In this document: in pieces, positions 11,232-16,023 of the stretch
How positions within the stretch are numbered: the stretch's first letter is position 1
How the letters are laid out: each line of letters starts with the position of its first letter
Origin: Oscillospiraceae bacterium
GTDB lineage: Bacteria; Bacillota; Clostridia; Oscillospirales; Oscillospiraceae
Assembly (NCBI GenBank): GCA_015067975.1
Contig: SVLK01000004.1
Span: 1 to 64,000, forward strand
Length of the DNA: 64,000 nucleotides
Direction of reading: 5' to 3'
Notes under the pieces: generated by a model
What the model was told of the DNA's origin: nothing
The model's input: only the letters and a program-made list of their open reading frames with translations
Databases searched by the model: none
Translations under genes and position numbers: made by a program

Positions 11232-12041
11232 TCAAGAACTGCTTTTTGGAAGAGCGGTCTGCAAATCTTGCGTGATAGCGGCTGGATTTTCGTGTTCTAA
11301 CGGAAGAAATTCCGTCATGTTGTGGCGGTAGCGCTTAGGCAGAAAAGTGTTCTGGCAGCGAGGATTATACCGTTCTTTAATAGCGATGGTCTCATAAAAC
11401 TTTTTCCAAAGTGCCCGGTAGTAGATCTCTTCTTCTCCCGGCAAAGCTTTTTGCCATGAATCTACCTGCAGTATTTGAGAGCGCCCTTTGGTGTAGAGCA
11501 ACAAATCTCCGTGAGTTCGGTCATAAATAAATAATGATTCGTTGGCGTAGCGGTTACAGAAATGGCTGCGCAGCAGCGGGAGAACTCTGTTTTTCGGTTC
11601 AATTTCCGCGCCCAAAGTGCCGTTATAGTCAGAAAAACGGACGAATCCACGTAGCTTCTCCAGCTCTCCGTTCATGTGACGAATCGCTTTAGCAATGGGA
11701 TGATAGGCATCATCTGCCTGATTCTTTAGAAAAGAATTACCGCAGCTATACAGTTTGCGTATAAACCGATACATGTGCATCTCTTTTTCGTCCAGACATG
11801 TTAGATAGCACCTGCGAAGCATATCTGCGGCTGTTGGAGAGACTTTCAAGATACTTCGATATACTCTGCGTGCATTTTCCGGCACGGTTAAAATCGTTCG
11901 TACAGAGTATAGGGACAGCATACATTCCTCATCGCTGAAAAACGCGATGGGGAATTCTTTATGCACATAGCTTTCAAAGACACAGCATAAAAACCCGTCA
12001 AAGGTTCCGTCGTATTGAAAAATGACAGAATCCCAAGCCAT
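11232..12041 (-). CDS. TIGR03915-family probable DNA metabolism protein (DUF4130)
   Basis: YDGTFDGFLCCVFESY..., RFSDYNGTLGAEIEPKNRVLPLL..HF..RY, adjacent to its usual radical-SAM partner; start MAWDSV with ggggtgag SD. Confidence 0.85.
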   Translation of the reverse strand: MAWDSVIFQYDGTFDGFLCCVFESYVHKEFPIAFFSDEECMLSLYSVRTILTVPENARRVYRSILKVSPTAADMLRRCYLTCLDEKEMHMYRFIRKLYSCGNSFLKNQADDAYHPIAKAIRHMNGELEKLRGFVRFSDYNGTLGAEIEPKNRVLPLLRSHFCNRYANESLFIYDRTHGDLLLYTKGRSQILQVDSWQKALPGEEEIYYRALWKKFYETIAIKERYNPRCQNTFLPKRYRHNMTEFLPLEHENPAAITQDLQTALPKSSS

Positions 12042-12045
12042 GATC

Positions 12046-13314
12046 TCACCCCACAGAATCAAAAAGAGAGAGCTGCGCTATTTGCGAGTGTGGCAGCTGC
12101 TTTTGTTCGATTGCCTCCAACTGTCTTGCAATGGTGGCAGCAGAAAATTGTAACCCGCTGCGCACCCGGCCGCTGCAGGTAATAAAATACTGGGCGCGTT
12201 TGAGAACAACTCCCAGTTTTTTCAAATCTTCAAATCTTAAATTAGTTGTGCGGCGCGCGGAAACGATCCGCCGGGCGCTGACCGGTCCAATTCCCGGCAC
12301 ACGCAGCAGCATCTCGTAATCTGCCTGCATGATTTCCACCGGAAACTGTTCCAGATGCCCGATCGCCCAGTTGCATTTAGGATCGATCAGCGGATTGAAA
12401 TCCGGCTGCTGATCGTTCAGCAATTCTTCTGCGCGGAAACCATAAAAGCGCAGTAGCCAGTCGGCCTGATATAGCCGATGCTCTCTTAGCAAAGGAGGTT
12501 GTGTATCTAAACTGGGGAGAAGAGAGTGTTCTACTACCGGCACATAGGCGGAGTAGAACACTCGTTTTAAACGGTATTTGTCGTATAAAGATTGTGTCAG
12601 CTGCAGAATGTGGCGGTCCGTATCCTGTGTCGCCCCGACGATCAGTTGCGTACTTTGCCCGGCTGGGGCAAAGGAGGGCGCGTGCTTATATTTCACCAGT
12701 TCGCGTTTGTTGTTAGCCGCCTGATCACGGATCAAGCCCATAGGCCGAAGAATGGCCTGCTTTGTTTTATCCGGTGCTAGCATCTGCAGTCCAGCTTCCG
12801 ATGGAAGCTCAATGTTGACACTAAGGCGATCAGCCAGTAACCCGAGCTGCTGTACCAGTTCCGGCGAAGTGCCGGGGATCGCCTTAGCATGAATGTAGCC
12901 GTTGAAGCCATATTCATGGCGCAAAAGACGCAAACTGCGCACCATCAGCTCGGTGGTATAGTCAGGATTTCGCAGCACGCCGGAAGAAAGAAACAATCCT
13001 TCGATGTAATTGCGCCGATAAAATCCGATGGTCAGTTCTGCCAGTTCCCGGGGAGAAAAGGCAGTGCGGCGCGTATCGTTACTGCGGCGATTAACACAGT
13101 ATTTACAGTCATAGACACAACAATTGGTCATCAACACTTTTAAAAGTGTGATGCACCGCCCATCTGCCGAAAAACTGTGACAGCATCCGGCGATCGAGGA
13201 AGAGGTGTTGCCGATTTTACCGGGTTGAGAGGAGCGGCGCACACCGCTGGAAGTACAGGCTGCGTCATATTTGGCTGCATCGGACAGAATCTCCAGCTTT
13301 TCTAAAAGGTCCAT
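12046..13314 (-). CDS. Putative DNA modification/repair radical SAM protein (TIGR03916-type) with C-terminal HhH
   Basis: CxxxCxxC in NCCVYDCKYCVNRRSND; HhH VPGIGPVSARRIVSAR; partner of TIGR03915. Confidence 0.9.
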   Translation of the reverse strand: MDLLEKLEILSDAAKYDAACTSSGVRRSSQPGKIGNTSSSIAGCCHSFSADGRCITLLKVLMTNCCVYDCKYCVNRRSNDTRRTAFSPRELAELTIGFYRRNYIEGLFLSSGVLRNPDYTTELMVRSLRLLRHEYGFNGYIHAKAIPGTSPELVQQLGLLADRLSVNIELPSEAGLQMLAPDKTKQAILRPMGLIRDQAANNKRELVKYKHAPSFAPAGQSTQLIVGATQDTDRHILQLTQSLYDKYRLKRVFYSAYVPVVEHSLLPSLDTQPPLLREHRLYQADWLLRFYGFRAEELLNDQQPDFNPLIDPKCNWAIGHLEQFPVEIMQADYEMLLRVPGIGPVSARRIVSARRTTNLRFEDLKKLGVVLKRAQYFITCSGRVRSGLQFSAATIARQLEAIEQKQLPHSQIAQLSLFDSVG

Positions 13315-13319
13315 GATGC

Positions 13320-13439
13320 TCAGGCAGAGCGAGTTCTGCGCTTACCCTGAGGATGTTCCATATGCTCAAACAAACGCATCAGATTGACGGCGATGGAACC
13401 GGCACCCAGCAAAATGATCATCAAAGAGAACGTTGTCAT
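13320..13439 (-). CDS. 39-aa single-TM microprotein (absent from ORF track)
   Basis: MTTFSLMIILLGAGSIAVNLMRLFEHMEHPQGKRRTRSA*; AGGAGG (13448-13453) 8 nt upstream of ATG; ends 5 nt before radical SAM ATG. Confidence 0.72.
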   Translation of the reverse strand: MTTFSLMIILLGAGSIAVNLMRLFEHMEHPQGKRRTRSA

Positions 13440-13456
13440 AGTCATTACCTCCTGTG

Positions 13457-13526
13457 GAACTTTTGTTCTATATGCATTATAAATCGAACAAGCGTTCTTG
13501 TCAATAGAAAATCGAACAAAAATTCG
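13457..13526 (-). promoter_or_regulatory. SOS promoter with LexA (Cheo-type) boxes
   Basis: Minus-strand TTGACA (13499-13504) - 17 nt - TATAAT (13476-13481); spacer contains CGAACAAGCGTTCT (13485-13498, plus-strand reading); further boxes GAACTTTTGTTC (13457-13468) and CGAACAAAAATTCG (13513-13526). Confidence 0.88.
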
Positions 13527-13544: not shown

Positions 13545-13573
13545 TTGACCGGGAAGGGAATCTGTATTAGAAT
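13545..13573 (+). promoter_or_regulatory. pcrA promoter
   Basis: TTGACC - 17 nt - TAGAAT. Confidence 0.65.
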
Positions 13574-13602: not shown

Positions 13603-16023
13603 ATGAACGAATTAGAAAAAAGGTTTATTACAGCACGCCGACAGGCGATCGCTTTGGAATATGCGCATTTGAATCCTCGGCAGCGCGAAGGTGTTCTGGC
13701 TACAGAAGGACCGCTGCTGCTGTTGGCGGGCGCCGGCAGCGGCAAGACTACGGTGCTGATCAACCGCGTAGCAAATCTCCTGCGTTACGGTAGCGGCAGT
13801 GACTCGACACAGATTCCTATGCCGATTTCTGTCGATGAGGTGGAGTTTCTGGAGCAGTATGTCCAAAACCCCGATCCGGAACAAAAGGCGCTGGCGCAGT
13901 ATCTGTGCGCCGTAGAGCCGGCACGGCCCTGGGAAGTGTTAGCTATTACCTTCACCAATAAAGCGGCAGGGGAGCTGAAAGAACGCCTGGAGCGTATGCT
14001 GGGAGAAGAGGCAAAGGACATGTGGGCGGCGACGTTCCATTCGGCCTGTGTACGGATCCTGCGGCGCGATATTGACAAAATCGGCTTTGACCGCAGCTTT
14101 ACGATTTACGACACGGATGACAGCAAGCGCGTGATCAAAGATGTACTCAAGGAACTGGGATTGGAGGAAAAATCATTCCCTGTTCGGGAAGTGCAGTCCA
14201 TCATTTCCGGAGCGAAAGACAAGATGCAGTCTCCGGAGGAGTTTGCATCGATCTGGGAGAACCGGGGTGACTGGCGCAAGGTGCGTATCGCCAAGGTATA
14301 CCGCATCTATAATCAGCGGCTGCGCGATGCCAATGCGCTGGACTTTGACGATATCATTCTCCACACCGTGCATCTGCTGCAGAGCAGCGCTGAAACGCTG
14401 GCATATTATCAACGGAAGTTCCGTTACATTCTCATCGATGAGTATCAGGATACCAACCAGATGCAGTATATGTTGGCCAGTCTCTTAGCCGGAGGATATG
14501 GCAATATCTGCGTTGTTGGCGACGATGACCAGAGCATTTACCGTTTCCGCGGCGCTGACATCGGTAATATCCTCAGCTTCGAAAAGCAGTATAAAAATGC
14601 CCGTGTGATCCGTCTGGAGCAGAATTACCGCAGCACTCAGAACATTCTGGATGCAGCCAATGCGGTGATTCGCAACAATCAGGGGCGTAAGGGAAAAACG
14701 CTGTGGACGGAGAACGGCAGCGGCGAAAAGGTAACGGTCAAAACTGCGTTCAATGAAGGCGATGAGGCGAACTTTGTGGTGGGTCAAATCATGATGGACT
14801 ATCACCGAGGCGGTAACTGGTGCGACCACGCTATTCTCTACCGTACCAACGCCCAGTCCAATGCACTGGAATACGCTTTCAAGCGCAACGGTGTTCCTTA
14901 TAAGGTCATCGGCGGTATGAAGTTCTTTGACCGGGCGGAAGTGAAGGATATGCTGGCATATCTCTGCGTGATCAACAATCCTGCAGATGACCTGCGTTTG
15001 CGCCGTATCATCAATGTACCGTCCCGTAAAATCGGTGCGGCCACCATTGACAAGGCCCAGATTCTGGCTACAGAAAATCGCGTACCATTATTTGAAATTT
15101 TGCGTAAGGCAGATGCCTATCCTGAGCTGAAAACAAGCACTGCAAAGTTAATAAGCTTTACAGATATGATTGGCGAAATGAAGCGGCGCGAAGGTGATTT
15201 GGGTCTGGTAGAATTCTATGAATATGTCTGTCAGCGTAGCGGTTATACACAGATGCTGCAGGATAAGGATGATATGGAAAGCCGCGGACGGTTGGAAAAC
15301 GTGCAGGAGCTGAGTTCCAGTATTCTTGCTTTTATGGAGAATGATCCGGAAAATCCTACGTTGTCCGGATTCTTGGATGAAGTGGCGCTGTATACGGATT
15401 TGGACAGCCAAAGCGATGCGGATAACTGTGTGACGATGATGACCATGCACAGTGCCAAGGGTCTGGAGTTCCCGCAGGTATACGTGGTTGGCATGGAGGA
15501 TGGTCTGTTTCCGGGGAACCGCGCTATGGGAGATCCGGAGGAGATGGAAGAGGAACGGCGTCTTTGCTATGTGGCTATGACCCGTGCCAAAAAGAAACTG
15601 ACCATGACCAATGCGCGGCAGCGCACGTTGTATGGCCGCACGACACCGGCAATGGCATCCCGATTCTTGGGTGAGATTCCGGAAGAGAACATGGAGTGGA
15701 TCAGTAAACCGGAGCCTCGACCTCAGCCGACTCATTGGGACGATTGGGCAGAAGATGGACCTGTCATTTACACACAGACTGCGCCGACAATGCCCAAAAA
15801 GCCGATGGCAGAAGCCGGTGGTTTGCGAAAGGCAGCTCCGGCTGGAGCGCCGCTGCTGCAGTTGAAAGCAGGCGAGAGTATTGCTCATGATGCGTTCGGT
15901 AAGGGCATGGTGCTGAGCGTTCGGCCCATGGGTAATGATGCACTTGTTGAAGTAGCTTTCGACAAGGTAGGTACCAAGAAATTAATGCTCAAGGCTGCAG
16001 GCAGCCATTTGAAAAAGCTGTAA
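13603..16023 (+). CDS. pcrA: ATP-dependent DNA helicase PcrA/UvrD
   Basis: LLLAGAGSGKTTVL, AITFTNKAAGELKERL, LIDEYQDTN, VGDDDQSIYRFRGAD, TMMTMHSAKGLEFPQVYVVG. Confidence 0.95.
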   Translation: MNELEKRFITARRQAIALEYAHLNPRQREGVLATEGPLLLLAGAGSGKTTVLINRVANLLRYGSGSDSTQIPMPISVDEVEFLEQYVQNPDPEQKALAQYLCAVEPARPWEVLAITFTNKAAGELKERLERMLGEEAKDMWAATFHSACVRILRRDIDKIGFDRSFTIYDTDDSKRVIKDVLKELGLEEKSFPVREVQSIISGAKDKMQSPEEFASIWENRGDWRKVRIAKVYRIYNQRLRDANALDFDDIILHTVHLLQSSAETLAYYQRKFRYILIDEYQDTNQMQYMLASLLAGGYGNICVVGDDDQSIYRFRGADIGNILSFEKQYKNARVIRLEQNYRSTQNILDAANAVIRNNQGRKGKTLWTENGSGEKVTVKTAFNEGDEANFVVGQIMMDYHRGGNWCDHAILYRTNAQSNALEYAFKRNGVPYKVIGGMKFFDRAEVKDMLAYLCVINNPADDLRLRRIINVPSRKIGAATIDKAQILATENRVPLFEILRKADAYPELKTSTAKLISFTDMIGEMKRREGDLGLVEFYEYVCQRSGYTQMLQDKDDMESRGRLENVQELSSSILAFMENDPENPTLSGFLDEVALYTDLDSQSDADNCVTMMTMHSAKGLEFPQVYVVGMEDGLFPGNRAMGDPEEMEEERRLCYVAMTRAKKKLTMTNARQRTLYGRTTPAMASRFLGEIPEENMEWISKPEPRPQPTHWDDWAEDGPVIYTQTAPTMPKKPMAEAGGLRKAAPAGAPLLQLKAGESIAHDAFGKGMVLSVRPMGNDALVEVAFDKVGTKKLMLKAAGSHLKKL

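Follow-up and report, generated by a model that had tools for sequence, protein, structure and literature searches.

What would a 39-amino-acid membrane protein do as the first product of a predicted SOS-controlled DNA repair operon, and is it encoded there at all? The question is raised by positions 13,320 to 13,439 of the window, i.e., the whole analyzed stretch of 64,000 nucleotides from an Oscillospiraceae bacterium, where a first-pass annotation had placed a microprotein gene with a possible checkpoint role in cell division. The features considered here are listed in Table 1.

Table 1. Features of the microprotein locus and its surroundings in window coordinates.
Feature	Position	Strand	Evidence or remark
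TIGR03915/DUF4130 putative DNA repair protein	11232..12041	minus	NCBIfam 203 bits; Pfam PF13566 147 bits
TIGR03916 putative DNA modification/repair radical SAM protein (422 aa)	12046..13314	minus	NCBIfam 659 bits, E 2.7e-198
39-aa microprotein gene, including stop	13320..13439	minus	ORF, homologues, purifying selection, AlphaFold2 helix
Shine-Dalgarno AGGAGG of the microprotein	13448..13453	minus	8-nt spacer to ATG; duplex energy -11.6 kcal/mol
LexA operator GAACAAAAGTTC, immediately 3' of the -10 hexamer	13457..13468	minus	exact match, conserved
Sigma-70-type promoter TTGACA-17-TATAAT	13476..13504	minus	12/12 match; conservation seen across 46 aligned promoters
LexA operator GAACGCTTGTTC, between the -35 and -10 hexamers	13486..13497	minus	exact match, conserved
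Degenerate third LexA-like site GAATTTTTGTTC, 5' of the -35 hexamer	13514..13525	minus	GAA-N6-TTC, position -86
pcrA/uvrD helicase, divergent, outside the operon	13603..16023	plus	TIGR01073 849 bits, below cut-off 911

Coding status and conservation of the microprotein gene

The open reading frame runs on the minus strand from an ATG at 13439 to a TGA at 13322-13320, and its product is MTTFSLMIILLGAGSIAVNLMRLFEHMEHPQGKRRTRSA (39 aa). An unannotated gene of this length, with AGGAGG 8 nt upstream and a stop 5 nt before the start of a radical SAM gene, had been described in the first-pass annotation; the coordinates of the open reading frame agree with this description, the radical SAM gene starting with an ATG at 13314. 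A further in-frame ATG at 13445, 6 nt upstream, is missing from the relatives checked, and 13439 was therefore taken as the start. The alternative forward frames over the open reading frame contain many stops. Substitutions are codon-like (pS 0.58, pN 0.28, median dN/dS approximately 0.35), with entropies of 0.84, 0.37, and 1.40 at codon positions 1, 2, and 3, respectively. The pattern of synonymous and non-synonymous change is thus that of a coding sequence, as had been anticipated.

A search of 99 relatives, many of the genomes compared being metagenome-assembled, showed that 27 additional genomes of the genus carry a homologue. Conservation of the peptide upstream of orthologous radical SAM genes had been named beforehand as a test, and a homologue occurs directly upstream of this gene in 28 of the 28 genomes of the genus that possess it. 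According to a separate search, the radical SAM gene is present in 28 of 32 genus genomes, and these are the same 28 that carry the microprotein. No convincing microprotein was detected in the four genus genomes without the radical SAM gene (G013, G015, G023, and G027); G023 yielded a weak match only (E 0.25), which is broken by a stop. Judged by its pattern of conservation, the microprotein gene is a genuine coding gene of a size that annotation would miss.

Organization of the repair operon

The microprotein was claimed to be the first gene of a repair operon. Comparative evidence supports this order, with the microprotein predicted to be translated first and followed by the genes for the radical SAM protein (TIGR03916) and the DUF4130 protein (TIGR03915). 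The radical SAM stop and the DUF4130 start are separated by 4 nt (window 12039-12048), indicating that the third cistron is probably coupled as well. The divergent pcrA gene has a promoter-like site of its own at 13545-13573. The two enzymes are those of the TIGR03916-TIGR03915 repair operon (PMC3765255), in which a LexA-like site precedes the radical SAM gene in many Oscillospiraceae, as it does here. In contrast to that operon, the microprotein gene is inserted here between the Shine-Dalgarno site and the radical SAM gene.

Promoter and LexA operators

Both sites that flank or lie within the promoter core at 13486-13497 and 13457-13468 are exact matches to GAACNNNNGTTC. Exact boxes by themselves are weak evidence: the window contains two where 0.73 are expected, and GAACN4GTTC occurs genome-wide about 20 times per genome compared to 23 times for the reversed control, i.e., without excess. 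Isolated boxes elsewhere were therefore not taken as a regulon. The arrangement at the microprotein promoter is more informative. Three LexA-like sites (window 13457-13525) follow each other at a spacing of 28-29 bp and are kept in most microprotein carriers. At least two operators with at most one mismatch were found in all 46 aligned promoters and in none of the shuffled promoters, and three sites with at most two mismatches occurred in 41 of the 46 as opposed to 0.2% of the shuffles. Such clustering on one promoter, together with its conservation across the alignment, is not what chance would produce.

In the genus, lexA adjoins secG and has a conserved GAACA-N3-GTTG operator (L169 and the other lexA loci, L167-L178). 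The extended lexA promoter site, [AC]GAACA-N3-GTTGC, has the same half-sites as the microprotein promoter and agrees with the Gram-positive operator GAACN4GTTC, which was measured in Clostridium (PMC4234289). The conserved operators overlap the promoter, and the microprotein gene is thus supported as a predicted member of the LexA (SOS) regulon. Accordingly, the SOS control proposed earlier is upheld by comparative evidence, from the operator array as well as from the lexA half-sites. Of the proposed LexA-box promoter, LexA control stands (46/46 promoters), but the single box has to be replaced by a tandem array of three. No leader RNA element was indicated by folding, which was no better than that of shuffled sequences (z +1.1).

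Translation of the radical SAM gene is probably coupled to the microprotein

The position of the ribosome-binding site depends on the presence of the microprotein. Where it is present, its own Shine-Dalgarno site has a median energy of -10.8 kcal/mol (47 of 47 at or below -5), whereas that of the radical SAM gene has a median of -1.5 kcal/mol (0 of 47 at or below -5). At the window locus the latter amounts to -1.9 kcal/mol, i.e., this gene lacks its own Shine-Dalgarno site. Where the microprotein is absent, the radical SAM gene usually has one (80%; median -7.7 kcal/mol). The two sets of radical SAM genes differ with P of about 1e-13 (Mann-Whitney), a value not to be taken literally as related genomes are non-independent samples; the all-or-none pattern, and not the P value, is the main point. 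The set without microprotein is conservative in that three of its loci, L131, L132, and L134, actually encode divergent microproteins; moreover, the start codon was placed slightly late in a few cases.

The gaps between the microprotein stop and the radical SAM start measure 1-12 nt, with 21 nt in one locus. Termination-reinitiation works experimentally over short gaps (PMC10666635), and the gaps observed here mostly fall inside the experimental range. The arrangement is that of a coupled first cistron, the downstream gene lacking a Shine-Dalgarno site and starting within approximately 15 nt of the upstream stop except for the one gap of 21 nt. Since the only Shine-Dalgarno site is that of the microprotein whenever the latter is present, translation of the repair enzyme is probably coupled to that of the microprotein, and ribosomes would have to translate the microprotein in order to reach the repair gene. 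This probable coupling is newly found and, like the triple operator and the paralogues described below, was absent from the earlier reading of the locus. The sole ribosome-binding site of a conserved repair enzyme would thus belong to a gene that standard annotation passes over because of its length, and experiments on TIGR03916 operons of these bacteria would be misled if constructs or annotations omitted it.

Distribution and evolution

On a tree of 100 radical SAM proteins, built by a quick method, the presence of the microprotein is explained by two changes, compared to about 34 with shuffled labels; 51 of the 100 rows are without microprotein. In our reading, the microprotein was gained once and later lost once, in a sister clade (L042, L071-L089, L101, and L105); a less favored alternative is that it was gained twice independently. 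The carriers include a cultured strain, Oscillibacter valericigenes An860 (L070). The operon is divergent from pcrA in 36 of 49 microprotein carriers and in none of the loci without microprotein. Of the remaining 13 carriers, 12 belong to an MTGW-type clade with the operon located elsewhere, and one is cut by the contig end. Divergent forms of the microprotein occur in other genera, e.g., MTGWSFFFILVGVAFLTYQLFRIIDAIERPARRTSRRRAMAR in an Oscillibacter-like clade. In profile searches, members of the family turned up in 5 of the 106 genera represented by 401 Oscillospiraceae genomes, and in no genome of another 290 from the class.

Predicted topology and conserved residues

The protein had been described as a single hydrophobic helix with a basic tail, and the predictions obtained are in line with this. 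The hydrophobic segment (KD19) scores 1.96, the median being 1.97, and AlphaFold2 predicts one helix comprising residues 2-28 that ends before the conserved P30 (mean pLDDT 81). As the N-terminus carries no charge and the C-terminus a net charge of +3, an N-out/C-in orientation is predicted. G12 is 100% invariant, and N/Q19, R/H/K22, D/E25, D/E28, and P30 are strongly conserved. The C-terminal tail tolerates changes in length; the helix and the RxIDxxDxP part do not. The conserved residues make a specific partner more plausible than general membrane damage. Pfam, NCBIfam, PHROG, and PADLOC provided no significant family for the microprotein, the best matches, HemY_N (E 0.04) and phrog_19190 (E 0.02, one relative), remaining below significance. 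Searches of phage records by tblastn returned chance-level matches only.

Possible functions of the microprotein

The reading that we favor, tentatively and at somewhat less than even probability, is that the microprotein delays division during DNA repair in a SidA/YneA-like manner. Upon DNA damage, LexA would leave the three tandem operators and ribosomes would load at the strong AGGAGG of the microprotein, terminate 5 nt short of a radical SAM start that lacks a binding site, and re-initiate at that start; the repair enzyme would then be made only in step with the microprotein. The latter would insert as one N-out/C-in helix with the invariant glycine and conserved polar residues. Its target in the membrane would probably be the septal cell wall machinery (FtsW-type), and binding to it would delay division while repair proceeds. 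In this scheme the gene, the operator array, the operon, and the loss of the radical SAM Shine-Dalgarno site are supported by comparison of genomes; the re-initiation step, the topology and, most of all, a division target are inferred.

A role in delaying division fits the predicted SOS control, the shape of the protein, its conserved residues, and the apparent lack of YneA. SOS-induced single-pass proteins of known role are mostly division inhibitors, e.g., SidA (PMC4211646), YneA (PMC13396833), and SosA (PMC6851548), which together with ChiZ provide a precedent (PMC4211646, PMC6851548, PMC13396833). None of the lexA loci of the genus (L167-L178) has yneA beside lexA, the neighbors being secG and others, and no LysM match was obtained in an open frame of less than 222 aa in 32 genomes; a YneA-type inhibitor thus appears to be missing from the genus. 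A published survey of LexA-regulated genes in C. difficile makes no mention of cell division (PMC4234289). As a conserved protein under predicted SOS control, the microprotein is a concrete candidate for holding division during DNA damage in (gut) Clostridia without YneA.

SidA of Caulobacter crescentus, an SOS-induced 29-aa inner-membrane division inhibitor (PMC4211646), is similar in its very small size, its single membrane helix, and its control by LexA. However, the microprotein sits, probably translation-coupled, in a clostridial repair operon, and family profiles revealed no sequence relation to SidA. More generally, searches of Pfam and NCBIfam families gave no homology to known division inhibitors, SidA, YneA, and SulA included, which counts against the division reading. 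YneA, SosA, and ChiZ share with the microprotein that they are SOS-induced single-pass membrane proteins of Gram-positive bacteria, but a sizeable portion of each of them lies outside the cytoplasm (LysM in YneA and ChiZ, an extended helix in SosA), whereas the microprotein is predicted to have about three residues outside and a cytoplasmic tail. YneA binds TM7 of FtsW through its helix and requires its LysM domain besides the membrane helix for inhibition (PMC13396833); Pfam detects no LysM domain in the microprotein. That the microprotein, unlike YneA, would have almost no extracytoplasmic part also counts against the division reading, as do the LexA-free paralogues, which are stand-alone or prophage-like, and the 51 of 100 tree rows lacking the microprotein. 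The strict linkage to the radical SAM gene and the coupling would equally fit a role with the repair enzymes.

Such a role, as a membrane partner, anchor or regulator of the radical SAM/DUF4130 proteins kept in fixed proportion by coupled translation, is in our view the main alternative, less probable than division delay but with several points in its favor. Within the 32 genus genomes the presence of the microprotein matches that of the radical SAM gene exactly, the radical SAM tree indicates vertical co-inheritance, and the coupling spans gaps of 1-12 nt, closely spaced genes being enriched for subunits of one complex (PMC10666635). Residues R/H/K22, D/E25, and D/E28 beyond the helix could form a docking site. 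However, about half of the radical SAM orthologues, including those of a sister clade, work without the microprotein, and paralogues occur without an adjoining radical SAM gene. To our knowledge, the radical SAM/DUF4130 enzymes have no membrane step, which also argues against a partner of this kind.

We consider it improbable that the microprotein is an SOS-induced membrane toxin that depolarizes the membrane and slows growth during damage. DinQ and TisB, toxins of this type restrained by antisense RNA (PMC3567139, PMC11449926), are LexA-controlled single-helix peptides of similar size, and the basic tail of the microprotein as well as the multi-copy and prophage-like occurrence of the wider family would suit a toxin. 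In contrast to DinQ and TisB, the microprotein is first in a repair operon and has a strong, open ribosome-binding site, a predicted 5' leader of about 30 nt and no unusual RNA structure; neither an antisense promoter-like site across the open reading frame nor an Rfam match was found, and hence no sign of a type I layout. The polar and charged positions that are conserved point to specific binding, and obligatory co-production with a repair enzyme would be odd for a toxin. PF16935 (Hol_Tox/BsrE-like type I toxins) matched none of the microprotein loci in the 32 genomes, even at E 10.

A leader peptide that only delivers ribosomes to the radical SAM start, its amino acid sequence being irrelevant, has little probability. 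It would account for a very short gap behind the first cistron and for a Shine-Dalgarno site that has moved to the microprotein and left the radical SAM gene with none, but not for a protein sequence that is held by purifying selection and has positions conserved across five genera, for the intolerance of the helix and the RxIDxxDxP part to changes in length, or for paralogues in unrelated contexts. A chance open reading frame in the 5' leader is conceivable in that short frames abound (9 kb contain 109 with 30 aa or more), but is refuted at the sequence level by conservation, codon-wise substitution, the Shine-Dalgarno site, the operon, and the tree.

The wider microprotein family

The microprotein profile also recovered paralogues that are stand-alone or located in prophage-like regions; the genes near them were identified by eye from protein sequences. 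Paralogues of 29-30 aa (e.g., MEGMTLLFTVCGAATLVKGMMKVFDRMER; L151, L152, L137, L141, L153, and L155) have a strong Shine-Dalgarno site and a promoter-like stretch upstream similar to that of the microprotein, but no LexA site. The one in this genome (G000 contig C7:135692-135781, L151) is stand-alone; others precede a gene pair encoding a pyridoxal-phosphate synthase-like protein and a short-chain dehydrogenase. Microproteins of the LIEWLDTPK type are encoded in prophage-like early regions (L138, L139, L140, L145, L146, L149, L150, and L154), and several of their genes share 1-4 nt with the stop of a small gene upstream.

From this distribution, the SOS form looks like one recruitment from a broader family. 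A more far-reaching reading, which we regard as doubtful, combines this with the division delay: an undescribed microprotein family of a few Oscillospiraceae genera and prophage-like regions would have been captured once as a translational gatekeeper, obliging cells apparently without YneA to make a division inhibitor and a repair enzyme in a fixed ratio. A DNA pattern for IEWLDTP matched in 8 viral contigs. In genus g112 (L131 and L132), microproteins of about 63 aa are of the form MTTTMFFVLLGAATVTGLLMKLVAWLDAP with an added tail, and their genes still precede the radical SAM gene.
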